From: Nannochloropsis oceanica
Lineage: Eukaryota; Sar; Eustigmatophyceae; Eustigmatales; Monodopsidaceae
DNA: 64,000 bases
Direction: 5' to 3'
Assembly: GCA_004519485.1 (NCBI GenBank)
Contig: CP038133.1
Location: forward strand, 62,001 to 126,000
Shown here: one piece after another, positions 18,872-49,708 of the stretch
Numbering within the stretch: position 1 is the stretch's first letter
How the letters are laid out: each line of letters opens with the position of its first letter
Notes under the pieces: generated by a model
Told to the model about the DNA's origin: nothing
Seen by the model: only the letters and a program-made list of their open reading frames with translations
Databases searched by the model: none
Translations under genes and position numbers: made by a program

Positions 18872-21062
<2,191 letters not shown>

Positions 21063-21970: not shown

Positions 21971-24082
21971 ATGTCCTCCACGAACAAACCGGCCGTGAAG
22001 AAGACCCGCTTCCAAAAGGAAAAGGAAGAACGGGAGGCGAAGAAGCGGCAGGAAGATGCGGAAGCCGCCAAGGTCTATGAGCAATTTGTGGCTTCGTTTG
22101 ACGCTGGCGATTCTAGTAATAGCAGGGGAAACAAACGCTTCGTACGGGCCCGAAACAGCCGCGGTCACCGTGAGGGATCTCCCGATCACTACCAGCCTCC
22201 CTTGCCCCCTCCTCCTTCTCCCCCTTCCTCCAGCGATGCGGCTTACCCTCCTCGGCTAGGCATGCCCACCCAGCCCAATGCCGTCAACATAATCGGCAGC
22301 AGCAGTACCAACGAGAGGAACAGCAGCGGCAGTGTGCTTCCACCCTCTTCGCTACCCAGCAACACCAAGAAAGGAAGCCGGCAGATCGATGCGTTTTTGG
22401 AGGAAATCAAGCAAAAGCAAGAATTGGGGATTGTTGTGAGCAAACGAGATTTACCGGGCTCTTATGATGATGGCGACCCGGGCACGACTAACTTGCACGT
22501 GAGTAATTTGTCGCCAACGACGACGGAGGAGAGGCTGCAAGATGTATTCGGGCGGTTCGGTCGGGTGTATTCGGTGAAGATCATGTGGCCTCGAACCGAG
22601 GACGAACGTGCCCGGGGACGCAACACGGGCTTTGTCTCGTTCCATTCCAGGGCGGATGCGGAGGACGCCAAGGAGCAATTGCATGATTGGGAGTTAGATG
22701 GACACCGGTTGGGCATCGGGTGGAGTAAGGCCGTCAAGAAGCTCGCCAATCTCTCCCCGGCGACGATAGTGGGAGGGGGGCAAGGGCACGTAGCTCCCCC
22801 TCCTGGGATGCTTTTGTCTACTCCTGGAGGTGAGGATGGGGTGAGTATGCACCCCCTGGTTCCCCTACAATTTTGTCACGATCCGGCTGGGGACGGGAGA
22901 GGAGGGCGAGGAGAGGGAGCAGCAGTAACAGGAGGAGGAGGAGCGATGCCTTTCCTGCCGCCGCTACCACCACCACCAGCAGGAGTACCACCATCACCAC
23001 CAACAGCGACAGCAGCAGTAGTGGAAGGTGGTGGCAGTGAAGGAGGAATGCCTCGCACTACAGCTGTAGCGGCCGTAGAGGCAGCCCTGGGAGGATCTTC
23101 TAGGACCACGGGAGCCCCTTCCTCCCTCCCTCCCCCCTTCTCCTCCACCTCGACTATCCTTGCCTCGTCGTCCTCCGTCCCTTTGAATCCCCTCGAAGAA
23201 GCCTTGCGCCGTGCCAGCAATATAAGCAGTCGTGTCGCGCACCAGCCATTGCCCTCCTCCTCTGCAGGGGGCGAGAGACGACTGGAGGACGACAGAAGCA
23301 GGGACCGGGGGGGAGGTCGAGAAGGGGATGGGGGGGGGGGGGGGGGAGGGAGGAAGGGGTCGTTCGGAAGGAAGGGGTTGGGAGTGGGGGAGGGAGAGAT
23401 ATGGGCACCATTCACGCTCTAGGTCCCCCGATCGCGACAGGGAGCGGCGGAAGAGGGAGGAGGAGGAGAGGGAAAGGGAGAGGAAGGAGAAAGAGGAGAG
23501 GGAGAAAGAGCGCGAACCCGGACCCGAGGACATCATGCTCGCTGTGCCGTTCCCACCTGATGCGGACGTTGAATTTTTGATCTCGCGCGTGGCGAGATAT
23601 GTGGCTAAGGATGGGGCTCCATTGGAGGAGCGGTTGAAGGTGAGCGAGAGCCAGAACCCTCTCTTTCGGTTTCTGTGGGAGGAGGCGTCGCCGGAGGGCG
23701 TGTTTTACCGGTGGCGCGTGTTTAGCCTTTTGATGGGGGACAGTGAAACGTATTGGAGGGAGAAACCCTTTCAGATGACGACCACAGGGCCTTATTGGGT
23801 TCCTCCCCCCATACCAGACGAGTGGCGAAAGATGAGGGAGAAAAAGAAGGAGGAGGCCGGGGAGGAGGGAAAGGAGGAAAAGCAGGCACGAGACGAGAAG
23901 ATGTTGGTGTCGGAGAGATATCGGGGGGAAGCCGCGCCGCGGAGGAGGAGTAGGAGTAGGAGTAGGAGTAGGGAGAGAGAGAGGGGGAGGGGGACGAGTC
24001 GTAGCAGGGAGAGGGAGAGGGACCGGCGGCGTCGGTCGAGGTCAAGAAGCAGGAGCAGGAGCAGGAGCAGGAACAGGAGCAC

Positions 24083-24113
<31 letters not shown>

Positions 24114-25805
24114 GAGATGAGACGTCGGCGCCGCAGTAGAAGCTATAGCAGAAGTAGAAGTCGCAGTCGCAGCAGGGAGAGAGGGGAGCGAGGCGGAGGA
24201 GGGTGGGAGGGAGGGCTTGAACGAAGGGAGGAGAGGGGACGAGGGAGGGAGGGAGTGAGGGAAGAGGTGAAGCCGGCGGCCGCGTATTTGACTGGACGGC
24301 AGGCGGAACGGGCTAGGGACGTAGCCAGAGGAAGGGCACCTTCGGCGAATCTGTCGGTGAAGGACCAAGAAGCATTTGTGTCTATTTTGAAGGGGTTGGA
24401 TGGAGGGAGGGAGAGGGTAAAGCAAGGGATGGGGTTTGCATTCGATCATGCCGACGCCAGTCAGGACGTGGTTGATATGCTCAAAACATCTATATGTGAC
24501 GAGGGGGGTCTGCCGGAGGAAAAATCCGCAGGGATCCCTCCCTCCCTCCCTCTCCGCCTTGCGCGGTTGCACCTGCTGTCGGACATTTTGTACAACTCGT
24601 CTGCAGCCGTGCGGAACGCCTCTACGTACCGAACCTACCTCCAACTGGCCCTTCCTTACGTGTTTGCAGCTTTTCACTCCTCCTTAGCGGCACTGGGGAG
24701 GATAACCAAGCAGCACGTCGAGGAGAAATTGATTCGTGTGTTGAGAGTGTGGGAGGGATGGTCTATCTACCCTCCGTTATTTCTGGTCGGTTTAGAAGCC
24801 ACCTTGATCGTGGATCTTGGAGGGGAGGGAGAAGAGGGGAAAGGAGGAAAGGAGGAGGAGGAGTTGGAGAAGGAAAGGGATGCGTTGATACGCCGGGCAC
24901 GGCAGGCGGGCTTGGTAACAGAGGGGTCGCTGGGGGTGGTGGTAAGGAGGATGAAGAGGTTGGATGAGTATATCAAGGAAAGGGCTACTGGAGGAGAGGG
25001 AGGAGGAGGAGGAAGAGGAAGGTCGAGGTTGGAGGGAGGAGGAGGAGGAGGGGAGGAGGACATGTCCAAATATGGACCCCGTGCTGCTGCTGCTGCGCCT
25101 CCTTTGGCTCCTACAGGTAACGCTATTGCTGGTGCTGATGCAGCTCCGTATACTTCGATACATCCATTCCAAAAGCAAGAGGACAGGGACGAGGACGATG
25201 TGGATGGGACGCCAATGGATGAGGCAGCGACGAGTATTTTCAGCAGCATGTATGGGTTGGGGGGGAGGGGGATCGATGATGAGGAGGATGACGAGGACGT
25301 AGATGGGCGGCCGGTCGACTTCCCCTTGCCATCTTCCTCGTCCACTGCTACTGCTGCTACTTCTGCTGTTGCTGCTAAGGGGAAGAAGCGAGGGAGGGCG
25401 GGTGTGGTTGCCTACTCTTCCTCTGATGACGACGACGACGACGACGATGGCCGCGCCATTTCGATAGGGGAGGCCCTTCAGCCGGAGCAACAACAGCAGC
25501 ATCAGCAGCATCAGCAGCAACAACAGCCGCAACACCAGTGGACCCCACAGGAAGAGGAGGCGAGAAGACGTATGCTACGGATGTTAGAAACGAGTCTTCT
25601 GCATCATAGAGACTACCTGGAAGCGCAAGGGGAGGAAAGCGAGAAAATAGAGGCTCAAGTCCAAGAGAGACGGACCGCGACAGTATCAGGGTGGGAGACA
25701 CAGATGCTGGCCAAACGGAAGGGGGGGGGGGGTTGCCACTGCGGTGACGGTGGAGAAAAAGCCGGTGATGGTGACGATGGCGGGGAAGGAGGAGCAGGGG
25801 GATGA
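21971..25805 (+). CDS. U2SURP: U2 snRNP-associated SURP/RRM/CID splicing factor (SR140), frame change at a G17 tract
   Basis: SR140 associates with the U2 snRNP in the spliceosome. Domains in order: a charged N-terminus (MSSTNKPAVKKTRFQKEKEE); IDAFLEEIKQKQE; an RRM (TTNLHVSNLSPTTTEERL, then TGFVSF); a SURP module (DVEFLISRVARYVAKDG, then NPLFRFLWEE); an Arg/Ser domain; a CID (LARLHLLSDILYNSSAAVRN, EEKLIRVLRVWEGWSIY); Asp- and Gln-rich stretches; and a cwf21-like helix (EARRRMLRMLETSLLHHRDY). No introns were seen. The register changes across 17 Gs at 23330-23346, and the span is one base over a multiple of three, as in the HEAT gene. From 23918 onward the gene lies in the tandem duplication. 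In this copy a G12 tract (25721-25732) gives a short Gly-rich tail, while the second copy has G11 and a longer basic tail. Confidence 0.88.
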
Positions 25806-26663
25806 GGGGAAAGAGGAGGGGGAAAGGCACGGGAAGAGGAAAAGGCAAGGGGAGGGGGAGGGACAGACGAAGACGCGGCGTCGGTAGATTCATATAATAG
25901 AACGCAATTATGCAGTAAGAGCACTTCTTTAGATACTGACTGGTCGTGTTGCTCACTGGCAAGCTCCGTCAAACAGACAGATGCTTGGATGTGATTGCAA
26001 ATGTTCTCTTCTTCTCTTTTTCAAGAGTTGGTTTTCTTCTGCGTCTTCTGTGTGATGGTATTAGGCGACCCTAACCCTTTTCTTCCTAGAGCGTTGATTG
26101 ATTTGGTTTGAGGCAACCCTTAAACCCTATGTTCCTTTTTTTTAAGAGCGTTGTCTTCTATTTATTTGGTTCAAGACGACCCTTTAATCCTTTTCTTTAT
26201 GGAGCGTTGGTCTTCTATTTCTTTTGTTGTCATTCTTTTTTAAAATGCGCCTTTTCCGGCCATCATGCAATCTCGCTCATAATCACACACTCACACACTA
26301 TCTTCCTTTCTCGTCCTCTCATACACGTTCGCTGACTGACTCTTTTTCTCTACTAGGAAGTTTTATCTTTTTAACATTCGCGGGTTGGTCCTTTTCGCCG
26401 CTGCTTTTGAGAGTATCGTCCCTTACCCCCTCTGATTCCCTCCTTCCTTCTTCGTCGTAGCTGGCTGGTCGACCTTCCCTCTTGCTTATTGTTGCTGCTG
26501 CTGGTGGTGGTGGTGGTGGTGTTGGTGTTGCTGTTGGTGGTGCTGCTACCGTTGTTCTCAAACGTTGACGACATTTCGCAATGCAATATTTTAGTACTGC
26601 ATCATGTCTCAAATCCTGCCCTCCCTCCCCTCCTCCCTCCTCTCCGCCCACACTTTCCCCCCC
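25806..26663. other. Convergent 3' gap with degenerate ~57-bp repeats (first copy)
   Basis: Between the first U2SURP tail and the orphan PP2C exon. Positions about 26060-26222 hold three imperfect units about 57 bases apart, each with a GACCCT-like block followed by GAGCGTTG (at 26088, 26145 and 26201 with small differences). A TGGTGG run lies near 26500-26550. No gene was recognised. The same sequence recurs 3209 bases downstream. Confidence 0.55.
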
Positions 26664-27051
26664 TTACGAACTCTCGGCCTCATCTCCGGAGCCCCCACTT
26701 CCTCCCCTACCTCCCCCCTCCTCTTGCTGCTGCCTCCTCCTTCGCCGCCCCTCCACACCCTCCCCCTCCTTCGCATGCCGTGCCATTCCCTCAAACCCCA
26801 CCACAACCGCCGAAATATTGTCCTTGCTATACCTGAATAAACACTGGTCAAGCAGCTCTTCTGCTACCAAGGCCATGCGCGTTTCGCCGTCGTTCAATAC
26901 CTCCTTCAAAATCTGCCCTGCTTCCTCATTCTCGCATACGTCCCACACACCATCACAGGCCAAGAGGAGCATTTCGTCTTTGCCTGCGTTCCGCGTGTGA
27001 ATCTCAATTTCGGGTACGGCGGTGACTTTCTGACGCTCAGGCGGGAGATGC
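26664..27051 (-). pseudogene. Orphan copy of the last PP2C exon
   Basis: Identical to exon 5 of the intact PP2C gene at 30260-29873, including the acceptor and stop, but in the first duplication copy it has no upstream exons: the sequence before it runs into U2SURP Arg/Ser-domain DNA. It codes from the P-E-R-Q-K segment through LLLACDGVWDVCENEEAG and KDNISAVVVG. It could be reached only by skipping over the intact last exon during splicing of a very long PP2C transcript, which seems unlikely. Confidence 0.85.
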
Positions 27052-27130
27052 CTGGGCGTGGAGGAAGAGAGGAAGGAGGGAGGGAGCGAGAGAGGGGGGG
27101 AGGGAAGAGGGGAAAATAAGGAAAATAATA

Positions 27131-27292
27131 TCGGGGGGAAGCCGCGCCGCGGAGGAGGAGTAGGAGTAGGAGTAGGAGTAGGGAGAGAGAGAGGGGGAGG
27201 GGGACGAGTCGTAGCAGGGAGAGGGAGAGGGACCGGCGGCGTCGGTCGAGGTCAAGAAGCAGGAGCAGGAGCAGGAGCAGGAACAGGAGCAC

Positions 27293-27323
<31 letters not shown>

Positions 27324-29096
27324 GAGATGAGACGTCGGCGCCGCAGTAGAAGCTATAGCAGAAGTAGAAGTCGCAGTCGCAGCAGGGAGAGAGGGGAGCG
27401 AGGCGGAGGAGGGTGGGAGGGAGGGCTTGAACGAAGGGAGGAGAGGGGACGAGGGAGGGAGGGAGTGAGGGAAGAGGTGAAGCCGGCGGCCGCGTATTTG
27501 ACTGGACGGCAGGCGGAACGGGCTAGGGACGTAGCCAGAGGAAGGGCACCTTCGGCGAATCTGTCGGTGAAGGACCAAGAAGCATTTGTGTCTATTTTGA
27601 AGGGGTTGGATGGAGGGAGGGAGAGGGTAAAGCAAGGGATGGGGTTTGCATTCGATCATGCCGACGCCAGTCAGGACGTGGTTGATATGCTCAAAACATC
27701 TATATGTGACGAGGGGGGTCTGCCGGAGGAAAAATCCGCAGGGATCCCTCCCTCCCTCCCTCTCCGCCTTGCGCGGTTGCACCTGCTGTCGGACATTTTG
27801 TACAACTCGTCTGCAGCCGTGCGGAACGCCTCTACGTACCGAACCTACCTCCAACTGGCCCTTCCTTACGTGTTTGCAGCTTTTCACTCCTCCTTAGCGG
27901 CACTGGGGAGGATAACCAAGCAGCACGTCGAGGAGAAATTGATTCGTGTGTTGAGAGTGTGGGAGGGATGGTCTATCTACCCTCCGTTATTTCTGGTCGG
28001 TTTAGAAGCCACCTTGATCGTGGATCTTGGAGGGGAGGGAGAAGAGGGGAAAGGAGGAAAGGAGGAGGAGGAGTTGGAGAAGGAAAGGGATGCGTTGATA
28101 CGCCGGGCACGGCAGGCGGGCTTGGTAACAGAGGGGTCGCTGGGGGTGGTGGTAAGGAGGATGAAGAGGTTGGATGAGTATATCAAGGAAAGGGCTACTG
28201 GAGGAGAGGGAGGAGGAGGAGGAAGAGGAAGGTCGAGGTTGGAGGGAGGAGGAGGAGGAGGGGAGGAGGACATGTCCAAATATGGACCCCGTGCTGCTGC
28301 TGCTGCGCCTCCTTTGGCTCCTACAGGTAACGCTATTGCTGGTGCTGATGCAGCTCCGTATACTTCGATACATCCATTCCAAAAGCAAGAGGACAGGGAC
28401 GAGGACGATGTGGATGGGACGCCAATGGATGAGGCAGCGACGAGTATTTTCAGCAGCATGTATGGGTTGGGGGGGAGGGGGATCGATGATGAGGAGGATG
28501 ACGAGGACGTAGATGGGCGGCCGGTCGACTTCCCCTTGCCATCTTCCTCGTCCACTGCTACTGCTGCTACTTCTGCTGTTGCTGCTAAGGGGAAGAAGCG
28601 AGGGAGGGCGGGTGTGGTTGCCTACTCTTCCTCTGATGACGACGACGACGACGACGATGGCCGCGCCATTTCGATAGGGGAGGCCCTTCAGCCGGAGCAA
28701 CAACAGCAGCATCAGCAGCATCAGCAGCAACAACAGCCGCAACACCAGTGGACCCCACAGGAAGAGGAGGCGAGAAGACGTATGCTACGGATGTTAGAAA
28801 CGAGTCTTCTGCATCATAGAGACTACCTGGAAGCGCAAGGGGAGGAAAGCGAGAAAATAGAGGCTCAAGTCCAAGAGAGACGGACCGCGACAGTATCAGG
28901 GTGGGAGACACAGATGCTGGCCAAACGGAAGGGGGGGGGGGTTGCCACTGCGGTGACGGTGGAGAAAAAGCCGGTGATGGTGACGATGGCGGGGAAGGAG
29001 GAGCAGGGGGATGAGGGGAAAGAGGAGGGGGAAAGGCACGGGAAGAGGAAAAGGCAAGGGGAGGGGGAGGGACAGACGAAGACGCGGCGTCGGTAG
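27131..29096 (+). pseudogene. Headless duplicate of U2SURP (RS domain to C-terminus)
   Basis: Copy of the 3' half of U2SURP made by the tandem duplication. It lacks the RRM, the SURP module and any promoter of its own. The first in-frame ATG, at 27327, would give MRRRRRSRSYSRSRS and 589 residues covering part of the RS domain, the CID and the cwf21-like helix. Its C-rich homologue tract is G11 (28931-28941), which keeps the frame open into a basic Lys/Arg-rich end (GKRKRQGEGEGQ, then TRRR). That tail looks more like a natural splicing-factor C-terminus than the Gly-rich end of the full-length copy. Confidence 0.8.
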
Positions 29097-29872
29097 ATTC
29101 ATATAATAGAACGCAATTATGCAGTAAGAGCACTTCTTTAGATACTGACTGGTCGTGTTGCTCACTGGCAAGCTCCGTCAAACAGACAGATGCTTGGATG
29201 TGATTGCAAATGTTCTCTTCTTCTCTTTTTCAAGAGTTGGTTTTCTTCTGCGTCTTCTGTGTGATGGTATTAGGCGACCCTAACCCTTTTCTTCCTAGAG
29301 CGTTGATTGATTTGGTTTGAGGCAACCCTTAAACCCTATGTTCCTTTTTTTTAAGAGCGTTGTCTTCTATTTATTTGGTTCAAGACGACCCTTTAATCCT
29401 TTTCTTTATGGAGCGTTGGTCTTCTATTTCTTTTGTTGTCATTCTTTTTTAAAATGCGCCTTTTCCGGCCATCATGCAATCTCGCTCATAATCACACACT
29501 CACACACTATCTTCCTTTCTCGTCCTCTCATACACGTTCGCTGACTGACTCTTTTTCTCTACTAGGAAGTTTTATCTTTTTAACATTCGCGGGTTGGTCC
29601 TTTTCGCCGCTGCTTTTGAGAGTATCGTCCCTTACCCCCTCTGATTCCCTCCTTCCTTCTTCGTCGTAGCTGGCTGGTCGACCTTCCCTCTTGCTTATTG
29701 TTGCTGCTGCTGGTGGTGGTGGTGGTGGTGTTGGTGTTGCTGTTGGTGGTGCTGCTACCGTTGTTCTCAAACGTTGACGACATTTCGCAATGCAATATTT
29801 TAGTACTGCATCATGTCTCAAATCCTGCCCTCCCTCCCCTCCTCCCTCCTCTCCGCCCACACTTTCCCCCCC
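29097..29872. other. Convergent 3' gap (second duplication copy)
   Basis: Second copy of the convergent intergenic region, including the three degenerate repeat units (about 29270-29431) and the TGGTGG run. It separates the truncated U2SURP copy from the stop of the PP2C gene. No gene was seen. Confidence 0.5.
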
Positions 29873-31403
29873 TTACGAACTCTCGGCCTCATCTCCGGAG
29901 CCCCCACTTCCTCCCCTACCTCCCCCCTCCTCTTGCTGCTGCCTCCTCCTTCGCCGCCCCTCCACACCCTCCCCCTCCTTCGCATGCCGTGCCATTCCCT
30001 CAAACCCCACCACAACCGCCGAAATATTGTCCTTGCTATACCTGAATAAACACTGGTCAAGCAGCTCTTCTGCTACCAAGGCCATGCGCGTTTCGCCGTC
30101 GTTCAATACCTCCTTCAAAATCTGCCCTGCTTCCTCATTCTCGCATACGTCCCACACACCATCACAGGCCAAGAGGAGCATTTCGTCTTTGCCTGCGTTC
30201 CGCGTGTGAATCTCAATTTCGGGTACGGCGGTGACTTTCTGACGCTCAGGCGGGAGATGCCTGGGCGTGGAGGAAGAGAGGAAGGAGGGAGGGAGCGAGA
30301 GAGGGGGGGAGGGAAGAGGGGAAAATAAGGAAGAGACCTTTGGGGGACACTGTGGAGGAGGGAGCGAAGGAGGGAGGGGAAGGAGGGATGAGAGACTTAC
30401 CTGTCTTTGTATTGGAAATCCCCGATGGACCGGGACAAGGCCAAATCACCATCGACCCTCTGCATGCTTACCATCCCTCCCGCCTCCTCGATCCTCTTCC
30501 GTTCATCGTCCAGGTAGGGCTTATGGTCCCTTGACAGCTGCTTGGCTCCATCGGATGAGAAGATCACTCCCCGGGAGTCCCCGGCATTGCCGACCACTAC
30601 ATGCGTGGGTGTGATTATGGCGCATATGGCGGTGCAGCCGCTGGTGTCCTGCTTGGACACAAATTCGTCTTGTCGTTTCAGAACCTCGTCCAGGTCGAGG
30701 AAAGCGGCGTGAATGGCGGACTGGTGGTTGGGGATTGGGAGGGGTGGGTGGAAACGATAGACCTAATCTAAAAAAGAGGGAGGGAGGGAGGAATGGAAAG
30801 GAGTGCAGGGAGGGAGGAAGGGGAGGCTCACCCGCAGGTGCGTTACGTCTCTCGTCTTCTTGTAGTCCTCAAAACCCTTGGTCTTCTTTAAAAACGAGAC
30901 CATGTGCTCCCCGCAGTAAATTGCCGAGTATTGACCCCCATGGCCATCGTAGACTGCTATAAAGGAATGTCCGTCCAGCTCGGGGTCTGATGCAAGGAGG
31001 GAAGAAGGGAGAGAAGAAAGAAGAAGAATGTGTGGATTAGGGTTGTGGTTCCTTCGTGTCTTAAGGTTAGAGTTAGGATGGTGGTGGGCATGTAGAAGAT
31101 TTTTCTATCATCTGAGAGTTACTTCCCTCCTCCCTCGCCTCTCAAGTCTTCTTACCAATTGTCTCGACGATGGTGTGTGCGTCCTCCATCTCTACTCTCC
31201 ATCCCTGTTCGTTCATGAGTTTCGAATTGTGTGTGGGGTAAGTTTGGCTGTGGTGAGGTGGACCTCACAAATCAGTCTTTTAAGTCAGGATCGCATGTAT
31301 CAGACAGGCCTACCTGCATGGCCGCTGCACCAAATTTTAACCCATGTGCCTCGCTCTCGTAATTCTCTTTTTCGGTGATGGGCTTGTCCAGGTGCGCCCC
31401 CAT
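29873..31403 (-). CDS. PP2C-type (PPM) serine/threonine protein phosphatase
   Basis: A metal-dependent protein phosphatase of 347 residues. Five exons on the minus strand: 31403-31314, 31204-31156, 30986-30832, 30762-30401 and 30260-29873, all GT-AG with matching phases. The start MGAHLDKPITEKEN resembles the N-terminus of PPM1 phosphatases. Family motifs in order: MQ/GWRVEMEDAHTI, FIAVYDGHGGQYSA, VGNAGDSRGV, LSRDHKPYLDDERKRI, DGDLALSRSIGDFQYKD, LLLACDGVWDV and DNISAVVV. The metal-binding Asp residues in MEDAH, YDGHGG, CDGVWD and KDNIS are all present. The C-terminus is Gly/Arg/Gln-rich. Its last exon lies in the second copy of the tandem duplication. It is divergent from the UDP-GlcNAc pyrophosphorylase gene. 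Confidence 0.93.
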
Positions 31404-33997: not shown

Positions 33998-36900
33998 CTA
34001 CCCCTCCTTCTCCCCCTCTTTAGTCCCTCCTCCAGCAGCCGCAGCTTTCGCGTTTTGCTCCTCCTCCTTCATCTTCTTCATCAATGCTACATAATCCACA
34101 TTCGCGCTGGCCGCCCTCCTCTTCCTCCTTCCTCCTCCCCCTCCTTCCTCCTCCATCACCACAGGCTCAGCCGCCGCCGCCGCCGCCGCCGCCCCAACAG
34201 CAGCAGCAGCAGCAGGTGCACTCTCTCCTACTCCCGGCACTGCTTCCTCCCTCCCAGCCTCCCTCCACCCGATCATCCCTGCAGCCGCTAGTCTCTCCTC
34301 CATCTTTCGCACTCGATTCTCCTGCTGCCGCCCCTCCAATCCCTCTTCCCACTTCACATCCTCCTCACTCCAGCCCTCCCTGTGGACAGTGCCTTCAACC
34401 AACCCTCGTACGTGTGCGGCGACAGAGCGAGCAAACGCGGAGACGACGCCCCCCTGAATCCGATACCCGCCTTCCAACACACTCACCACTCGACCGTTAC
34501 AGAACGTGTTGGCGAGTCGGACCAAATGCCGCGTGATCCACTCGTAGTCTTCCTCGATCAAGCCGAGATAGCCCATGTTGATACAATCCTGGCGAAAGGG
34601 AGGGAGTAAGGAGGCAGAAGACGTGTGAGTGCGTGTTGGTAGGAGGGAGGTGGCAAAGGAGGAAGGGAGGGAGGGAGGGAGGCAGGGAAGGAAAGTCTCA
34701 CCTTTCGGTGCGCATCAAACCCCGCAGAAATAAAAATTATGTCCGGCTTGAACGCCGCCAGCTTCGGTATTACCATCGCTCGCATTGCCTTCCTCCACTC
34801 TACCCTGCTTGTCCCCGGCACACTCTCACTCGGGTCAACCAGGCCCATACCCACATCCAAAACCAACGGCCCTTCCCCCCCTTTCTCTTCCTCCCCCTCC
34901 TCCTCCACCTTTCCATCCACCTCCTCCTCTGCCGCCGTCGCCGCCTCCTCCTTCGCTTCTTCCCCTTTTCCCTCCTCCTTCTCCTTTTTTCCAACATGGG
35001 CCGGCACTCTCGTCTGCCCCGATCCTGGGTAAAAGGCGCCCATCCCTCTCATGTCCCTTCCTCCGTACCCGTGCACAGACACAAACAAAACGTCCTCCCC
35101 GTCCTCCTCGTTCAACCACGGTTTATATTTGGTGGATCGGAACGTGGCCTCACACCACGGAAGGCCACTACCGGTGGCGCTGCTACGGCTGGTGCTGCTG
35201 CTTTTGCCGTGCGTGCTGGTGCTGTTTCCGGTTTGCGGGAAGGTGAAGACCTCCTCCCGGGGAACAAGGTTTTCGACTATCTCCTCCGTGCCATTTCTTG
35301 AATGAGGGGAAGGGAAGGGGGGAGGACGGGAAGGATTCATGCATGAGAAAAGAGTGGATGAAAAGAGGCAAGAGGCAAGGGAGGGAGGGAGGGGGAGTTT
35401 ACGGGCTTACCCGTGATGCACGTCAAAGTCCACGATCGCCACCTTCTTGATGCCCTGGTGCCGGTACACATGCCGGGCATACGCTGCCGCGACTGCCACG
35501 TTGTTAATTAGGCAAAATCCATGCGAGCCTTGATCAGAGGGGTCGCACTTCACCACCCCTCTGGAGCCGGCATGATGCCCCGGCGGTCTCACGGCGCAGA
35601 ACGCATTCCGATTCGACTGCGCCACCACACGGTCGACTGCCAAGCAGGTCGCGCCGGCGGCACGCAAGGCCGCGGTCCACGAGGCACGTGAGACTGCCGT
35701 GTCACCGTCCAGGTGGCCGATGGCATGGGGGGAGGGAGGGAGGGAGGCACACACTCGCTGGATGCGACGGAGGTAGTCAAAATCATGCACCCTGAGAAGG
35801 TCCGCTAGAGGCGCTTCCGGAGCCTCATGGCACCATTCCACTTTCCCTTTAGATGACGAGGACGACGGGGAAGAGGAGGAGGAGGAGGAGGGAGGGAGGG
35901 AGGAGGGGCAGGGGGTGAATTCGCGGGAATGGAGGATACCAGTGTCGGGGTCGAGGAGGACCTTGAGACGATGGACGTTCTCCGGGGGAGGATCGCAGTG
36001 GGTGGCCCGGATAATGGGCGTGCAGGTGTGGTGTTCCAGACATGTTGGATCGGCGATGAGCAAGGTGGGGGAGGGCGAAGAGGGAGAGGAGGAGGGAGGG
36101 AGGGAGGAGTTGAAGAGGCCGAGGAGCTTCTTGAGGTCGTCTGGGATGGCGTGCCCGGCCCGCACAGCCATTTGGCCAGCGGTGATATGTTGCTTGTCTT
36201 TGGATTTGGAAAGGGAGGGGTCTTGGCCAAGCAGGTACTTGGCGCAGGGCCAGTGGGCGCCCAGGCAGGCGTAGTGGAGAGGTGTCATACCTCGCAGATT
36301 CCCGGCTTTGAGCGCGGCGTCCGTGTCCATGCACCCTGAGAGGAGCGCAGTTAGGGTCTCGGCATGCCCTTGCTTGGCTGCCAAGTGCAAGGGGCGATTT
36401 CCTATGCGGTCTTTCACTTCGAATGACTCGCCGGCACTGCCTGTGTGGGAGAGCAAAAGCTCCACGAACTCGGTCAGGCCATGAAACGCTGCCAGGTGTA
36501 AAGGAGTATAATTACAGTCGTCCTTCACATTGGCGTCTGCTCCCTTTTCCAACAGCAGCTGGGTGGCTTCCAAAGCAAAAGCCCGGTGTTGCGGCAAGCT
36601 GCCCACGGCCAAGGCGGTGTGCAGGGGGGTGGAGCCCTCCGTTTTCTTCACCACGCTCGCCCCGGCCTCGAGCAGCACGCGCATCGCCTCCAACTGCCGC
36701 GCATGGATAGCCACATGCAACGCCGTGCAATTGAAATTGTCTTTTTCGTTGAGATCAACCGGTTGGGCTCTGATCATCATGCCCAAGCCCCCCTCCTCCT
36801 CGTCCATGTCGTCATCCTCCTCATCCTCTTCCTCGCCATCCTCCCCCCCGCGGTAGCTCTCGTCGTCCTCGCTGTCCACCTCCTCCTCCTCCTCCTCCTC

Positions 36901-37197
36901 CTCCTCCTCCTCCTCCTCCTCCTCCTCCTCCTCCTCCTCCTTCTTCTTTTCCTCTGCGTCTCCTTTCTCCTTGTCAGCCCCCATCGCTGCCACCTTGCCA
37001 TTGTCATCCACATCCATAGCCCCTCCGTCTTCCCCTCCCTCTCCCTTCTCCCCCTCCCCCTCTCCCACCGGCTTGATCGCGATCAGGCGACGTATCGTTT
37101 CCACGTCCCCCCGCTCCGCTGCGTCGTGCAGAAGAAAACGTCGGCGGGGCGTGTAGCCCATGTCGTCCGAGCTGGCGGCAGAGGACTCGTCACTCAT
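33998..37197 (-). CDS. Ankyrin-repeat/class II histone deacetylase fusion
   Basis: A zinc-dependent deacetylase fused to an N-terminal ankyrin array, 990 residues. Exons on the minus strand: 37197-35411, 35296-34702 and 34588-33998. Residues about 20-400 hold ankyrin units ([97 protein letters not shown]). An early loop contains a poly-Glu run from a CTC repeat (about 36880-36945). The deacetylase domain follows: [51 protein letters not shown] and VLEGGYR, with zinc ligands Asp-x-His and Asp present. An acidic insert splits the domain before [13 protein letters not shown]. The C-terminus is Ala-rich and ends with a basic helix. The ATG at 37197 was chosen because the longer frame opens with GTG. 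Confidence 0.9.
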
Positions 37198-39319: not shown

Positions 39320-39920
39320 TTACATATCCCCTCCATATTCGTCAGTGCTGGACATAAGCCTGCTAAACCGTTCCAGGCGATCTTTAAGCTGCGGGGAGGG
39401 GGGAGGGGCCGAAGCTGGAGAATCAAGAGGTTTTACCCCTCCTTCTCCTCTTCCTCTTCCTCCACCACCTTCTGCGCGGAAAGAGGAGGAGAAAGAGGCT
39501 GCGGATGATGCGGACGATATGGAGGAGGAGGAGAGTAAAGAGGAGGAGCGAGGGTGGGATGTGGTGGTGGAATTGCTGATTGTTTTCAAGGAGGGGGTGG
39601 AGACGACAGTGGAGGAAGGGGAGGAGGCAGATCCCGGATGAGAGACAGATGAGACTGTGGAGGAGAAGGTGGTGCCTGCAGCAGTAGCTACAGCAGTACC
39701 GCTCTCAGCCTTGCCTCTGGGGTTTATAGGTGAACGATAAATGGAGTGAGGACTCGGTGCTTGTTGCTGTTGCTGCTGCTGCTGCTGCGGTGTTCCGTCG
39801 GGTGAGGAAGAAGGGTAGAAGGAAGAGTGGGCGCCCCGACGGAAGAGTTTGCGGAAGTTGCTTGCTATGCTGCTCTTGCCCTTGGTCTTAATCTTTCGGT
39901 TCTTCTTGTTGTTGCTATCG

Positions 39921-39978
<58 letters not shown>

Positions 39979-42900
39979 CACTGTTGCTCCGACGGGTGAA
40001 GGCGAGGTACAAGTTGGGAGAACGAGGAAGGGGAACAGTTTGTGCAGACATCTCGGACTCTCGCGTGTCTCCCAAGACGTCACCTTCCTCTCCTTCATCT
40101 TGTAGAGAATCCATCCGGTTCGTATTCTCCGGTGTCGCTTCAAAAGAAATAGGCACGAAGGGGGAGGGGAGGTCGGCATCACCGTCAGGGAGGACGAGAG
40201 GGGCTCCGTATTGCTTGATCTCTTCTTCGTGACATGCACGACGTGGGATGGTAGCAGCGATGCAGGTGGGAGACTTGGGAAAGGGTACGAGGGAGATTGC
40301 GCCGCTGGCTGTACGACGAAGAGTTGAGTAAGTAAACGGAGGAGAGGAAGAGACAGGACGAGCTTGGATGTCAAACAAATTCATGACGGTGGTAGAGGGC
40401 TGCTCTTGCGGCTGCACTTGCGGCTGCGTCTGTTGCTGCTCCTCCCTAGCCTCCTGCTCTCCTTGGTGCCTTGCTCCCGATGCTGCAAGCGAGGACGAGC
40501 GAGACGACGTCTGGGTGTCAAACAAATTCATGACGGTGGTAGAGGGCTGCTCTTGCGGCTGCGTCTGTTGCTGCTCCTCCCTAGCCTCCTGCTCTCCTTG
40601 GTGCCTTGCTCCCGATGCTGCAAGCGAGGACGAGCGAGACGACGTCTGGGTGTCAAACAAATTCATGACGGTGGTAGAGGGCTGCTCTTGCGGCTGCGTC
40701 TGTTGCTGCTCCTCCCTAGCCTCCTGCTCTCCTTGGTGCCTTGCTCCCGATGCTGCAAGCGAGGACGAGCGAGACGACGTCTGGGTGTCAAACAAATTCA
40801 TGACGGTGGTAGAGGGCTGCTCTTGCGGCTGCGTCTGTTGCTGCTCCTCCCTAGCCTCCTGCTCTCCTTGGTGCCTTGCTCCCGATGCTGCAAGCGAGGA
40901 CGAGCGAGACGACGTCTGGGTGTCAAACAAATTCATGACGGTGGTAGAGGGCTGCTCTTGCGGCTGCGTCTGTTGCTGCTCCTCCCTAGCCTCCTGCTCT
41001 CCTTGGTGCCTTGCTCCCGATGCTGCAAGCGAGGACGAGCGAGACGACGTCTGGGTGTCAAACAAATTCATGACGGTGGTAGAGGGCTGCTCTTGCGGCT
41101 GCGTCTGTTGCTGCTCCTCCCTAGCCTCCTGCTCTCCTTGGTGCCTTGCTCCCGATGCTGCAAGCGAGGACGAGCGAGACGACGTCTGGGTGTCAAACAA
41201 ATTCATGACGGTGGTAGAGGGCTGCTCTTGCGGCTGCACTTGCGGCTGCGTCTGTTGCTGCTCCTCCCTAGCCTCCTGCTCTCCTTGGTGCCTTGCTCCC
41301 GATGCTGCAAGCGAGGACGAGCGAGACGACGTCTGGGTGTCAAACAAATTCATGACGGTGGTAGAGGGCTGCTCTTGCGGCTGCGTCTGTTGCTGCTCCT
41401 CCCTAGCCTCCTGCTCTCTTTGGTGCCTTGCTCCCGATGCTGCAAGCGAGGACGAGCGAGACGACGTCTGGGTGTCAAACAAATTCATGACGGTGGTAGA
41501 GGGCTGCTCTTGCGGCTGCGTCTGTTGCTGCTCCTCCCTAGCCTCCTGCTCTCCTTGGTGCCTTGCTCCCGATGCTGCAAGCGAGGACGAGCGAGACGAC
41601 GTCTGGGTGTCAAACAAATTCATGACGGTGGTAGAGGGCTGCTCTTGCGGCTGCGTCTGTTGCTGCTCCTCCCTAGCCTCCTGCTCTCCTTGGTGCCTTG
41701 CTCCCGATGCTGCAAGCGAGGACGAGCGAGACGACGTCTGGGTGTCAAACAAATTCATGACGGTGGTAGAGGGCTGCTCTTGCGGCTGCGTCTGTTGCTG
41801 CTCCTCCCTAGCCTCCTGCTCTCCTTGGTGCCTTGCTCCCGATGCTGCAAGCGAGGACGAGCGAGACGACGTCTGGGTGTCAAACAAATTCATGACGGTG
41901 GTAGAGGGCTGCTCTTGCGGCTGCGTCTGTTGCTGCTCCTCCCTAGCCTCCTGCTCTCCTTGGTGCCTTGCTCCCGATGCTGCAAGCGAGGACGAGCGAG
42001 ACGACGTCTGGGTGTCAAACAAATTCATGACGGTGGTAGAGGGCTGCTCTTGCGGCTGCGTCTGTTGCTGCTCCTCCCTAGCCTCCTGCTCTCCTTGGTG
42101 CCTTGCTCCCGATGCTGCAAGCGAGGACGAGCGAGACGACGTCTGGGTGTCAAACAAATTCATGACGGTGGTAGAGGGCTGCTCTTGCGGCTGCGTCTGT
42201 TGCTGCTCCTCCCTAGCCTCCTGCTCTCTTTGGTGCCTTGCTCCCGATGCTGCAAGCGAGGACGAGCGAGACGACGTCTGGGTGTCAAACAAATTCATGA
42301 CGGTGGTAGAGGGCTGCTCTTGCGGCTGCGTCTGTTGCTGCTCCTCCCTAGCCTCCTGCTCTCCTTGGTGCCTTGCTCCCGATGCTGCAAGCGAGGACGA
42401 GCGAGACGACGTCTGGGTGTCAAACAAATTCATGACGGTGGTAGAGGGCTGCTCTTGCGGCTGCGTCTGTTGCTGCTCCTCCCTAGCCTCCTGCTCTCCT
42501 TGGTGCCTTGCTCCCGATGCTGCAAGCGAGGACGAGCGAGACGACGTCTGGGTGTCAAACAAATTCATGACGGTGGTAGAGGGCTGCTCTTGCGGCTGCG
42601 TCTGTTGCTGCTCCTCCCTAGCCTCCTGCTCTCCTTGGTGCCTTGCTCCCGATGCTGCAAGCGAGGACGAGCGAGACGACGTCTGGGTGTCAAACAAATT
42701 CATGACGGTGGTAGAGGGCTGCTCTTGCGGCTGCGTCTGTTGCTGCTCCTCCCTAGCCTCCTGCTCTCCTTGGTGCCTTGCTCCCGATGCTGCAAGCGAG
42801 GACGAGCGAGACGACGTCTGGGTGTCAAACAAATTCATGACGGTGGTAGAGGGCTGCTCTTGCGGCTGCGTCTGTTGCTGCTCCTCCCTAGCCTCCTGCT

Positions 42901-45900
42901 CTCCTTGGTGCCTTGCTCCCGATGCTGCAAGCGAGGACGAGCGAGACGACGTCTGGGTGTCAAACAAATTCATGACGGTGGTAGAGGGCTGCTCTTGCGG
43001 CTGCGTCTGTTGCTGCTCGCCTTTCCCCTGCTCTTTAAAGGACGCCTGGGTGTCGAACAGGCTTATGATGGAAGTGCAGGGCTGCTCTTGCAGCGGCGGC
43101 TGCGTCTGTTGCTGCTCCTCCCTAGCCTTTTGCGTTCCCCTTTGGTTTGTCGAGGAGGCGGCGAACAAGGAAGAATAAGGGAAGGCTTGAGTGTCAATCA
43201 GGCTCATGTAAGCGGTGGAGGATCCGGGTGCCACCGGCGCCGATCTTAAGCTTGTGGACTCTTGCATGCCTTCAATAGTGGAAGAGGGAGAGGAGGTGGA
43301 GGAAGGGGGGGAGGAGGAATGGATAGTATCAAAGAGCCCTCTGGTGATTGGCCGGGGGTCTGCTGATTGCAACGATCCGCTTCCTTCCTTGGTGATGGAC
43401 AAGGAGAAGGAAGGGTGGCGAGGGGTGTCGAATAGCCCAAGAACGGTAGAGAGCGGAAGAGGTGTTTCCTCAGTTGGTTTCAGCGTTGCAGATGTCCGCT
43501 TATTTTGATCTGAAGTCGAGGCGGAGGAAGAGGATGAGGAGGAAAAAGGTGGGGAAGCTTGGGTGTCAAAGAGCCCTTGTACAGTACGGGAAGGCTCGAC
43601 TTCGTCTTTTCTGGGCGCGAAAGCTGCAAATGCCCGCGAACTTTCCTGCAAGAAGGGGAAGGCGGAGGAAGAGGTGGAGGAAGGGACAGAAGAGGAGGAT
43701 AGGACGGTGTCAAAAAGCCCCTTGAAGGTCCGGGATGGATGGGAATCCTCTTCCTCTTCTTGCATTTCTTTCTTTGGCACATGCCTGACATGCGTTGTCG
43801 TCTGGGTATGGGAAAGGGGAGGCTGTTGCGCTGTTTGAAAGAACTCTGTGGATGTGAAGTCTGTCATTGTACGTGGGTTGGATTCGGGCGTGGCGGTAGT
43901 GGCTGCCAGAACGGAGGAGGAAGAGGGGGGGGAGGAGGAGATGGTCGGAGTACAAGGAGGAGGCTGCTCAAGCTCGCTAGCTGTAGCAGTGGCAAAAAAC
44001 TGGCCTGGCCGTGGGCTCGTTTCCGACACTGCAGTGGTAGATGCGAAAAGGGAGGAGAAGGAAAAGGTCACTTTGGGGGTGAAAGGAGACTGGGTCGCAG
44101 TCTGGTAGAATCTTGTGGAGGTAAGATCCTCAGGCGATGCAGTCCTTGTTATAGATAGAGCAGAGGAGGAGGAGGGAGAGAAGGTAATAGTAAAAGTAGT
44201 GGAAGGGGGCTGGACATCAGTGTTGCCGGACTGGGCAGTTGTATCGGTCAGATCCGCGCGGCGTTGTGCTTGCGTTTCTTGTGAAGAGACGGAAGGAGAG
44301 GTGATAGAGGAGGAGGTGGGGGGGGGGGAAGAAAGGAAGACAGGCTCCATCGGGCGCTGTGTCTCTCGTAGGGAGACAGAAGGACCGAAGGAAGATGCCG
44401 ATGAGGTGGAGGAAGGCAGAAAGGTAACCGTTTGACTTGGAAAAGGCGGGATCTGGGAGATACCCTTGACAGTATTGGAATATGTCTGCGCTCGTGAGCT
44501 TCCCTCGTCCTCTTCCCGCATTGTCGAAGTGGCCGTTGAAGAGGGGGAGGAAGACGCTATTGGGTTAGCAGGAGGGTGAACGGTGTCGAACAGCCCCATG
44601 ATGGTTCGTGGCACTTGCCGGGGCAGCATGGGCCCGGTAGTCGATGTAGCTGGTGTTGCCGGGCAAGGCGTATTGGAGGTAGACTGTACTGTGTCGAACA
44701 GACCCATGATGGTCCGCGACACGTCCGCTGTGGGCGCAGGCGTCGTAGTGGAGGATGTGGACGTCATCATCGGACTGGCTTGAGGCTGAACGGTGTCAAA
44801 TAGTCCCATGGCTGTCTGAGAGGCCTGTTGAGGCTGGGCTGTGTCAAGCAAGCGCATAGCAGAAGTAGACGCAGGACAATGTGCGAATGATGAAGAGTTG
44901 ACAGTCTGACTAGGCGGCTGGGCTGTGTCAAGCAAGCGCATAGCATCAGTAGATATGGTCGTCAACGAAGAGGAGAGATCCGTTGTCTGGGTGGGGGCAG
45001 GTTGCACTGTGTCAAGCAAATGCATGGCTGCCGTAGATGCAGCCTCTTGTCGGTGGTGCTGCTCCGTGGCCAAATATGGGAAAGACAGGGACTGTGTAGA
45101 GGGCGGTTGAGCTGTGTCTAATAAATGCATGGCATAAGGTGTTACATGCGGAATAGGTCCTTGTTGGACTGTGGCAGGCATTATGAACGCCTTGGATGCC
45201 GAAAGGGAGGAAGAGGGACTGAAGGAGGAAGAGGAAGAGGATTGTTGGATCGTGTCGAAGAGTCCCGAAAGAGTGTTGGGGGCGGGGGATGGCCGAGATA
45301 TTGGAGCGGAGGACGGGGAGGATGCGAGGAATGACGAGGGCGGTTGTCTTCTTGTGTCGAACAGGCCCATGACGTCCATGGGTACGGGCTGTTGTGGCGC
45401 GCCACCGAGTGGTTCAGAAGAGGAGGGCGAGGGAGCGGGGGAAGAAGGAGGAGGATGCACTGTATCGAAAAGCCGCATGATAGTTTGAGAGACGGGCGGC
45501 CCGGAGGACACGGCATTCGAGGAAGCAACCGTTGGCTGGACAGCGGAGCCAGGTAAAAACGTGGCATCTTGAGAAGGAGGAGGAGGAGGAGAAGAGGAGG
45601 GAGGCTGGACGGTTTCAAAAGGCTGTCTAATGCTCTTGGAAACACCAACCGACGGTCCCTGTGGTGTTGGCACAGTCGCTCCTGAATCCTGAACGGTGTC
45701 AAAGAGGCGCATCACAGCCGTGGAGGCATGTTGGGGTTCGTTGCCGGCAGGTAGTTCCATTGTGTCCAGCATCCGCCATACCTCTTCTGAGACACCTTCA
45801 GGGCGGGGCGCCTTGACTTTGACGCCGTTCTCGTGCCTGTGCTGACTGAACCGGACGGACTTGGCAAGCGTGGCGGCAGCAGCTGGAAAGAAGGTAGGGG

Positions 45901-48900
45901 TGGGAGAGGCAAGATGCTGGCTAGGAGAGGTGGCGACTTGAGACTGAGAGTACTGCCAACCGGTGGCGGGGACGGGGACGGCGGGACTTGATTGGCCGAA
46001 AGGCCCCGTTTGATAATATGAGGTAGGAGGGGGGGGCGCGGTGGAGGAAGAGAGGGTGGAGATGGTGGGAAGTGTTTCATGCACTGCTGCTTCTAGGCGT
46101 TCTTGGCCTTCGCGTTGTTGTCGTTGGAACATAAGTGATTGTCTGGAGGGGCGGGTAAAGAGACGTTTTGATGGTCGCGGAGAATCAGGAGAGGAGGAAG
46201 AGGAAGAAGAGGGGGATGAAGCAGAGAAGGGGAATGTAGTCGTGGTCGATGACGCCGTCTGGAGCGAATCCGAATGCCGCTGCTGCTGCTGCTGCTGCTT
46301 GGACTGCTGCATGAGGGTAGCCATGGACGCCAAGGAGGGGGGAGGATCCATGGAGGAAAAGGATGAGGGAACAGAGGTGGAGGAGGAGGGAGCAGAGGTG
46401 CTGGTGGTGGAAGTGGTGGTGGTGGTGGCGGAGGAGGAGGAGGAGGAAGCAGGGAGAGAGGACGAATAGGAGGACAACGCAGACGCAGGGAGGGAGCGAG
46501 AGAAGTAGGAGGAGGAGGAGGAGGCAGGGGGAGAAGAGGAGGACGAAGAGGCGGGGGGGGAGGAAATGGTGTTGGGATCGGGGATAGACGACTGCGAGCC
46601 ATATAAAGTGGAAGGCATGTCACTCGTAGTAGTAAATCCTGCCTGACTGATAGACGAAATCATGGTGCTGTTCCCCGTTGAGCTTGCTGGGTACCTAGCC
46701 GAAGTTCCATCCCAGGAATCGTGGGGCAAAAATTGCTCCTGAACTGCCTCTGCAGGTGGTGTTACCTGCTGCTGCTGCTGCTCCCCCTCCTCCTCCTCCT
46801 CCTCTTCCTCCCACTTTCGTTGCGGGGGCCGGCTGTTGTACTGGCTGCTGCTACGCGGGAGTGGAACGGAATACCCAGCGCCGAAAGAGGGGGAGGGAGG
46901 AAGGGAATGATTGGCTGCTTTTGAGCCTAGTGCCCTGTCCGGTGAAAGGAGCTGCTGCGATTCCGATGGCTGGATCAACCCCATGCTGCTGCTATTGCTG
47001 CTGTTGCTGTTTGCAGGCTTGGATAAATCTAATTTATTGGAGGATTGTGTGGCGGACAGCTCTTCCTCCACCCTATCTGCCGCGTCAGTGAAGATAGAGC
47101 CGGAGGGGGTGGTATTATTCTCGTCGCCGTCTCTTGTTGAGGAGTCTTTCAAGGGCACGGCCGTCGGGGAGGTACCCTGTGCCTCCTCGCCTTCTTCCGC
47201 ACACCCAGACTCGTACATCGACGTTTGGCCAGCAAAGGCAGTGAACGTGGGTTTGGCCGAGTCGAGAGGCCGAGGAGCAAGAGAGGCGCGGGTGCCGCTC
47301 GGTGGGGCTAGGACTGTGTCTTCCTCCCATCCCTCCTCCTGATCCTGCGGTCGCGAGAAAATGGATGGCAATGTATCATCTCCATCGTCGAAGGAGTCCC
47401 GTGGCAAGAATGCCTGCGCTGCCTCCTCCCTCTCTCCATCACGCGCGGTCTCCCTCCAGGCCTCATCCCCTCCCATCCCTGAGGAGATCGCCTCTTCACC
47501 ATATTGCCCCTCATCCCCATCCTCCTGGTGCTGATAGTACTGTTGCGTCTGCTCCTGGTTATAGTACTGTTCTTCCTGCTGCTGCTGCTGCTTCTGTTCT
47601 TGTAGGTTCTGGTAGTACGCTTCCTCCTCTTCTTCTTCGGACTCGATTTGGGTTGACTGCTGTTGCTGTCGTCTTGACCATGACCGATTGCCTTTCACAT
47701 TCCGCGACGCCCTGGACCGCCAGCCTCCGCGACCAGAAGGTAAATTCTGCCCCTCCTGCTCTTGCCCTTCTCCCTCTTCCTCCTCATATTCGTCTTCATA
47801 AAATTCGTCCTCCTCGTCTTGGTCTACGTCTTCTTCTTCTTCTTCTTCTTCGTCGTCGTACTCCTCCTCTTGGCAGTTTCGCCTCACTCTGGACGACTTC
47901 GGCGGGGAACGCGGCGGCGTCCGAGGCGGGGAGTCAGAACGGTCATAGGATGGTGGAGGACCTGGTGGCGGTGGCAACGCGCGCTTTCTCGTCCTACACC
48001 CTTCATCCTGCTGCTCATACAGCTGGGGACTTGGCGAAATGCTCCCACTCTGTCCCACAGGCGAGCTTCGGTCGCGGCTGCAGGGTGACAGGCTCCGCCC
48101 TCGAGGGGAGGAGAGACTCCTCCGAGCACCCCCTCGCCCTTCTACTCCTCTATGCCTGTACCGATCATCCACTGAGTGCGAGCGTCGGTCGCGTTGGTCA
48201 CGTTGTTCGTCGTAGTAGTGGAGGTCCTCCCGGCGTGCGCTGACCGTTGGCCTTTCCAAGGACACCTGCAGCTTGGTCACCACCAACGAACCGGAGGGAG
48301 GGGAGAGAGATGCCCGCCCCTCGATGGTGTCGCGGACCTTGCGTAGGGCGGAGGTCGTGACGGCTTGTTCCTCGCTTTGCGGCTGGTGGCGGTGGTGATG
48401 TTGCTGCTGATGGTGGTAGCGAGGTGGGGAGGAGGGGACAACTGAACTGTGGTTGCCGCGGATGGGACCTGCCGATATAGTAGGCGAGGAATGATGGTGA
48501 TGATGCACATGCTGGCAGGGGTGTGTGCGAGATACCGGTGATCTCACCACCATCACTCTTGGGGTGGAAGGCGAGGAACGTCGATGAGGAGACTCATATC
48601 GAGGGATAGTAGGCTTGAAAGTGCATGGGCGCATTTCTTGCTCTTCTCGAATGCGACGCAGGCGCTCTAGCTTCTCCTTCGCCTCTTGCCCCTCGAACAA
48701 GAGCCGCTCTACGACGCTACCTTTCGGGACACATTCTGACTTGCGTGAAACAATGCGGGGCTTGAAAGTGCAGCGATCAAACTCAACCTCGCCTGTCGTC
48801 TTGCATGAGGGGGAATGGTGTTGGCGTTGGTGTTGCGAAGAGGAGGAGCGCTGGGTGGTCTTTGCCATACTGCTGCCACTGCCATCGTGGTAGCTGCGCT

Positions 48901-49708
48901 TGCTTTCAAGGACCTTAGGCATGAAGGTGTATTGTGCCGCGCGTTCATCCTCGATCCGCTTCACCAGCCGCTTCCGTCGTGCTCTTTGCACGTTTTCGTG
49001 CTCTTGAAAACGCACGGCAATAAGCGGTTTCTTCTTGGGCGATGCCGACCGCAACCACGGCAGAGGAGATGCAGAGCGTGTACTCCGCGTAGACAAGCCT
49101 GAGGTGAGCGTGCATTCAGGATCTTGGTACTTGGCAGCCTTTTGCCGGGCGACACGCGCCGTCCCATCCCGTGACAGCCGCTCAAACACGTTGCTGGCCG
49201 TTCGTCCCCCTCTCGAACAAGGGAGGGGCGAGGCGCTGCGTGCCCGGAGAGCACGATCACGTGCCTGACTGTTCGATATCAGTTGGGGGATGGAACCCAT
49301 TCCACGGGTCTCCTCGCTCTCCCGCTGCGCTCGTAGCATCTCCAGTCGAAGCTTTCGAGCGGCTTGGTACCGCGACAAGCGCTCATTGATAGGCAGCTGC
49401 TCCTCTGATTCGGAGCCGTACTTGTGCGCATACAAATGTGGTATGAAGGTACGATCCTCTGTCTCATCGTATTGACTTGCACGGGCCCGCTTCTCGCTGC
49501 TGCAGGTGTTGCTCTTGCCCTTCCGCGTAGGGGAGGCCGAGCACGAACGCCCTGCTCCATGCAAAACCGCCTGGATATTGCCCTCGGCGCTGCGGAAACG
49601 TTTAGCTAAGCCAGCAAAATGGTTTTGACGCGCCTCCGTATCCCGGTACATGTCATCGAATCTGTTTTGAGGCCGAACCCGTCGTTGCTCGAGCTGCATG
49701 GTTTTCAT
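39320..49708 (-). CDS. Giant LFDT-motif repeat protein (3462 residues), unknown function
   Basis: An uninterrupted 10.4-kb frame with no intron, starting at a clear ATG (MKTMQLEQRR). The first ~400 residues are basic and helical and carry four F-x-P segments (TFIPHLY, YTFMPKV, CTFKPRI, CTFKPTI), a style seen in protist cytoskeletal or ciliary proteins. Residues about 400-1300 are disordered: Arg/Ser-rich, acidic, then Gln- and Ser-rich. From about 1310 to 3115 a short motif M-x-L-[FL]-D-T-[VAQ] recurs roughly 40 times, for example VMRLFDTVQ, IMGLFDTVH, AMHLLDTAQ. Nineteen perfect or near-perfect copies sit in a 45-residue tandem repeat (VMNLFDTQTSSRSSSLAASG and a Gln/Glu-rich half). The end has a poly-Asn run (GTT repeat near 39915-39979), poly-Gln and a final Ser-rich part. 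No membrane segment or enzyme domain was seen. A multivalent scaffold is my inference. Confidence 0.8.
40366..43018 (-). repeat. 135-bp coding minisatellite in the LFDT protein
   Basis: About twenty head-to-tail units of 135 bases (45 codons), nearly identical, fully in frame. Units begin near 40378, 40517 and then every 135 bases to 42959, except one spacing of 147 bases. Two variants mark the array. A 12-base insertion (coding PQVQ) occurs at about 40405 and 41231, and a C-to-T change turning HQGE into HQRE occurs at about 41413 and 42223. Each variant recurs six units apart, indicating block duplications of six units. Because the unit is a multiple of three, long antisense frames appear on the + strand; they are artefacts. 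Confidence 0.95.

Follow-up and report, generated by a model that had tools for sequence, protein, structure and literature searches.

We analysed a stretch of 64,000 nucleotides of the Nannochloropsis oceanica genome, bases 62001–126000 of contig 7 (CP038133.1; assembly GCA_004519485.1, 29.26 Mb in 32 contigs), hereafter called the window. On its minus strand lies an open reading frame, P0001, which runs from 39320 to 49708 including the stop codon and encodes 3462 amino acids with no internal stops. We refer to it as the LFDT gene, after a short motif with the core Leu-Phe-Asp-Thr that recurs dozens of times in its product. In the divergent part of this repeat array, each of the other five frames is broken by 17–50 stops, which identifies the minus-strand frame as coding. 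The next long minus-strand frame upstream ends at 50671, ~960 bases from that of P0001.

The protein can be divided into successive regions, all encoded on the minus strand. The basic N-terminal region (residues 1–420; 48449–49708) carries predicted helical arms and F-x-P segments. It is followed by a low-complexity linker with stretches rich in His, Gln, Glu and Ser (residues 421–1290; 45839–48448), which contains the sequence KSVRF shortly before the first LFDT copy (residues 1283–1287; 45848–45862); this resembles a docking motif for protein phosphatase 1. Then come the divergent LFDT array with 18 cores (residues 1313–2220; 43049–45772), a 135-bp minisatellite of 19 LFDTQT units (40410–43018), a last tandem copy that reads LFDI (residue 3111; 40367–40378) and a C-terminal low-complexity tail with an Asn tract (39320–40363). 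When the whole protein was searched against Pfam, nothing rose above the cut-off (best match DUF6941, E 0.81); the PDB gave two weak matches, one to 22 residues of the Asn tract (E 0.0055) and one within the tandem part (E 0.13). An earlier, sequence-only reading had described a giant disordered protein. The size is borne out, and the signs of disorder are mixed: AlphaFold2 run on single sequences without an alignment gave a mean predicted local distance difference test (pLDDT) score of 52.7 for residues 1–400 and 40.9 for residues 1290–1730. The charge–hydropathy rule classes four of five regions as disordered, with the divergent LFDT region just past the boundary, on the ordered side.

Using the pattern [LIFM][FLI][DE]T, we found 37 cores of the form [LM][FLI]DT between residues 1313 and 3062. 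Together with LFDI and a diverged copy, PFET, at residue 1363 (45611–45622), this makes 39 copies, with cores from 45772 down to 40367, in good agreement with the roughly 40 copies that had been placed at 40366–45790. The 18 divergent copies (residues 1313–2217) are irregularly spaced, 16–292 residues apart, and the other 19 stand in the 135-bp array, as expected from the earlier description of irregular older copies and a minisatellite of the newest ones. Residues 1291–2240 contain 18 cores, whereas 5000 composition shuffles averaged 0.07 and reached 2 at most. Scored with a leave-one-out profile, 17 of the 18 divergent copies exceeded the 99% shuffle maximum (11.5); the exception, with a score of 4.2, is the first copy, MLDT at residue 1313. 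PFET scored 14.0 and is the one diverged copy outside the tandem part. Several more had been suspected between copies 1706 and 1998, in a 292-residue stretch that has no intact core (43718–44581), and only PFET, which lies outside that stretch, did better than the shuffles.

Among the divergent copies, Leu is present in 17/18, Asp in all 18 with never a Glu, and Thr in all 18, the last being demanded by the search pattern. Information above background peaks at Leu, Phe/Leu, Asp and Thr. It is higher than the 99% random level at −7, −6, −4 to +5 and +7, whereas none of the columns 8–20 residues away rises above that level. The core of the longer consensus proposed from the sequence alone stands, and the full form is looser than claimed (Met at −2 is found in 11/18 copies).

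The tandem part is young. Counted from the first of the 19 tandem cores to the final LFDI, the array has 19 units: 17 measure 135 bp and two measure 147 bp. No synonymous difference separates the 135-bp units, and their sole substitution, from Gly to Arg, is found identically in units 6 and 12. Units 13 and 19 are the longer ones, each through a 12-bp insertion. That both changes recur six units apart suggests duplication in blocks. The number of minisatellite copies depends on the assembly. Two antisense frames are also open across this part because one stop-free unit is repeated. The tandem units are too uniform and too recent to be informative about selection.

For the four codons of the core, comparison of all pairs of the 18 divergent copies gave a proportion of synonymous differences (pS) of 0.80 and of nonsynonymous differences (pN) of 0.09, hence a pN/pS of 0.114. 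The ratio was 0.93 and 0.86 for the residues 9–20 away on the two sides; because no true alignment of the flanks is possible between copies, these values mean no more than that flanking codons are as dissimilar as unrelated ones. Random draws of 18 × 4 codons from the same region (n = 300) had a median pN/pS of 0.93 and a minimum of 0.78, and bootstrap ranges for core (0.06–0.16) and flank (0.86–0.94) did not overlap. The copies are related and are not independent observations. Codon usage within the divergent cores is broad: all six Leu codons and all four Thr codons occur, with a diversity like that of the rest of the gene. Asp is the exception, being encoded by GAC in 16/18 cores compared with 54% in the gene (p = 0.002), a mild excess for which we have no explanation.

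Copies had been picked by their core, with a pattern that required Thr, either Asp or Glu, and a hydrophobic residue in each of the first two positions. We therefore hid the core and applied a leave-one-out profile to the wings alone (positions −7 to −1 and +4 to +7). The threshold was the 95% shuffle maximum, 10.5. Leaving aside the 19 intact tandem units, 13 sites passed, of which 11 have an intact core and the other two are PFET and LFDI; copy 1449 barely passed. Over 12 of these wing-found sites (LFDI was omitted as part of the array), the pN/pS of the core was 0.163. Since the wings alone find sites that mostly have an intact core, constraint on the core is supported beyond picking bias. 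The proposal that the core is selectively kept is supported by these data, in a comparison among copies of one genome: synonymous positions of the divergent cores are saturated, and the core ratio stays low when copies are found with the core hidden.

We then considered what structure the motif might adopt. At low confidence, AlphaFold2 placed eight helices in residues 1290–1730, all of which contain a copy, and eight of the 12 copies there are helical (p = 0.017 for the overlap by circular shifts). In 15/18 divergent copies, the hydrophobic moment is larger for a helix than for a strand. We also matched the copies against 23 simple motif patterns. Only the general phi-x-x-phi-phi pattern (phi, hydrophobic residue) fits most divergent and all tandem copies (16/18 and 19/19, respectively). 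Two specific candidates were rejected: the Atg8-interacting motif (LIR), [WFY]-x-x-[LIV], was found over the core in 10/18 divergent and 0/19 tandem copies, and the clathrin box, L-phi-x-phi-[DE], in 0/37. The models and moments hint that the motif may fold into a helix on binding.

The second repeated element of the protein lies at its N-terminus. F-x-P segments and x-R-L arms occur within residues 87–368, and four segments of the form [TVHL][FWY]xPx[ILVM] are present in residues 1–420, a number reached in none of 2000 shuffles: TFIPHL at residue 87 (49433–49450), TFMPKV at 261 (48911–48928), TFKPRI at 314 (48752–48769) and TFKPTI at 363 (48605–48622), all on the minus strand. Helices are predicted at residues 107–137, 231–261 and 332–358, with pLDDT of up to 80, 88 and 85 by block. 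A scan of the genome for C-T-F-x-P returned 113 places compared with 87 in the reversed control, so most single matches are chance. Among the matches listed, we found three more in-frame groups with matches less than 1 kb apart, on contigs C4, C5 and C22. The frames there hold 7, 5 and 3 F-x-P segments, respectively, numbers never reached in 2000 shuffles of each; one of the five, HFLPPL, is at the very start of its stop-to-stop frame and may not be translated. As in the LFDT protein, a charged helical arm with x-R-L precedes C-T-F-x-P-x-[ILV] or a variant of it, whereas an [LIMF][FLI]DT core is missing from all three frames (L012, 3190–5712; L013, 4053–6473; L014, 2447–6184). If an FxP group is defined as we did here, by at least three segments per frame and a count above shuffles, the LFDT protein belongs to it. 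The F-x-P segments are thus a real repeat, common to at least three other proteins of the genome. In addition, an in-frame C-T-F-x-P pair with its members 2.2 kb apart is present on C7 near 1.24 Mb.

The C4, C5 and C22 frames gave no Pfam match above the cut-off, the PDB held no match to the repeat profile or to the C4 or C5 proteins, and a literature search for CTFKP brought up no related paper as judged by title and the start of the abstract. Similar C-T-F-x-P repeats are probably found in other protists as well. The group merits study in its own right. The N-terminus had been read as a cytoskeletal anchor on account of its basic character and F-x-P segments; the repeats are real, and a cytoskeletal role is a guess because no Pfam or PDB match shows what F-x-P binds.

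We looked for relatives of the array both in the genome and beyond. The pattern G-L-F-D-T matched 29 places in the genome (13 in the reversed control): nine in the LFDT gene and a further 20 that stand alone, separated by more than 100 kb. M-x-L-[FL]-D-T matched 39, of which 28 are in the LFDT gene and 11 are single (5 in the control). A genome protein search with residues 1290–2240 gave 21 matches, 20 of them in the LFDT gene; the remaining one (E 0.08, contig C13) is a low-complexity frame with neither motif. Scans of viral contigs and genome contigs found no relative, in collections with few or no algal nuclear genomes, so that this null result is no evidence of absence. GIT_SHD and KIX domain searches of the genome had no match, but the controls were silent too and nothing follows from them. 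In the literature, no protein motif named LFDT was found by title and abstract start, a search for Nannochloropsis with tandem repeat and intrinsically disordered found nothing, and broader searches had nothing on an LFDT protein among the entries listed.

The window contains other features of note. A polyubiquitin gene on the minus strand (18872–20905) encodes eight ubiquitin domains, repeated in tandem with a unit of 228 bp. The other strand has an open frame too, of 729 aa, but its Pfam matches look spurious. Two near-identical tandem copies of ~3.2 kb (23918–27123 and 27128–30332) contain a frame with Surp and CID domains in the first copy and a frame with CID only in the second. Further minus-strand frames combine ankyrin repeats with a partial histone deacetylase domain that follows them (35407–37197), and a partial DNA topoisomerase domain with a GRF zinc finger (4077–6176).

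From the constraint on the core, docking to one partner would be the most natural inference. We favor, with a probability of roughly 0.6, a multivalent scaffold whose LFDT helix docks one partner and which is held by the FxP region. Each copy, approximately [ST]-x-x-[VIA]-M-x-L-[FL]-D-T-[VAIQ], would be a short linear motif, folding into an amphipathic helix once bound, with phi-x-x-phi-phi spacing followed by Asp-Thr. By offering the motif 37 times, the chain could gather or crosslink many molecules of one folded partner. Tandem duplication would make the copies, the old ones included, after which spacers would drift and selection would keep the core. The N-terminal FxP-repeat region would probably fix the scaffold to a structure common to the other FxP proteins of the cell.

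A wider proposal is more tentative, and we put it forward as a possibility that may well prove wrong: LFDT could be an undescribed class of helical docking motif, present in dozens of copies on one FxP-anchored eustigmatophyte scaffold that gathers a dedicated partner into a lineage-specific structure or condensate, with valency tuned by the fast-changing minisatellite. To our knowledge, few algal scaffolds have been described outside the pyrenoid. The 18 natural variants in one protein show which motif residues matter, and Nannochloropsis is transformable and editable. Should the partner prove specific, the gene would establish a novel motif–domain pair, and the young minisatellite would permit a direct test of how copy number sets scaffold valency.

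Several observations weigh against the docking scaffold. Besides the unalignable flanks and the inconstant Met, seven of the 18 divergent copies were recognised by their core alone, with wings below threshold. The mean pLDDT of the modelled array segment, from one sequence, is only 40.9, and four of its 12 copies are non-helical. Full helical spacing with a hydrophobic residue at +4 is seen in 12/18 divergent copies and in none of the 19 tandem ones. Finally, the two patterns G-L-F-D-T and M-x-L-[FL]-D-T, which do not cover all core forms, revealed no second array in the genome, and neither did the protein search with residues 1290–2240.

Among the alternatives, the one that survives best, while still distinctly less probable than a docking scaffold, is that the amphipathic cores are homotypic stickers, which bind each other and form a condensate or gel with no dedicated partner. 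The many copies on a Ser/Thr/Pro/Gln-rich chain and the dominance of the helical moment would suit such a role, and the stickers of PYCO1 bind one another too (PMC10288592, in excerpt). However, the kept polar Asp-Thr, with an Asp that is never Glu in 18/18 copies, exceeds what general stickiness needs. The same amphipathic pattern could serve membrane binding, for example on lipid droplets, and large oil bodies are reported in Nannochloropsis (PMC7886885, in excerpt). We consider this improbable, as the helices would be only ~10 residues long and the copies keep Asp in every case, and a strict D-T would not be expected for lipid binding.

An array for LC8 (dynein light chain) is suggested by the tandem units, which carry DTQT with the TQT anchor of LC8 in 19/19 copies, and the genome encodes a canonical LC8 (E 1.4e-52 vs 1pwj). 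TQT is, however, absent from all 18 divergent copies, so LC8 cannot explain the conserved core; the strict pattern [^P].[KR].TQT occurs in 0/37 cores, and LC8 ligands bind as a beta strand (PMC6607443, in excerpt), at odds with a helical core. We regard an LC8 array as very unlikely, and LC8 binding as, at best, an additional role confined to the young units. Equally unlikely is a neutral coding minisatellite that expands and decays without function. It would account well for the near-identity of the tandem units, marked only by the twofold Gly-to-Arg change and two insertions, and for the single diverged copy and the 292-residue distance with no intact core, but the divergent cores keep their residues while saturated at synonymous positions. 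A linker of Rubisco or of another plastid component, like EPYC1 or PYCO1, would share the general design of helical stickers on a disordered chain (PMC10288592, in excerpt) and is scarcely credible here, given the lack of KWSP (0/9 Trp residues are in one), the apparent lack of an N-terminal signal segment in the sequence and the reported absence of a pyrenoid in Nannochloropsis strain CCMP 526 (PMC7886885, in excerpt).

The docking scaffold can be compared with known systems. PYCO1 and EPYC1 are likewise disordered repeat proteins with several helical stickers for one folded partner, a partner that is presumed in our case; unlike the LFDT protein with its ~39 copies, they have five or six main stickers, contain KWSP in the case of PYCO1 and belong to the plastid (PMC10288592, in excerpt). 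ASCIZ and other multivalent LC8 ligands also present many short anchors on a disordered chain to one hub (PMC5963919, in excerpt), whereas here the TQT anchor is confined to the young tandem units and the conserved core is LFDT. The nearest motif that we met in print is (V/I)-(I/L)-D-(L/A)-Y, found in Msb3, Msb4 and Ste7, which bind the SHD1 of Spa2, and in beta-PIX, which binds GIT1 (PMC12831199, in excerpt). Like L-(F/L)-D-T-(V/A/I/Q), it is a short helix in a disordered region with two hydrophobic residues and then Asp, but it has an important Tyr two positions after Asp, which is seen in 0/18 copies here, where Thr follows Asp in 18/18; the available part of that paper mentions no arrays. 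By analogy, the LFDT protein may work like other multivalent motif scaffolds such as PYCO1, EPYC1 and ASCIZ, while using neither the PYCO1 motif nor, in its divergent copies, the motif of LC8 ligands.

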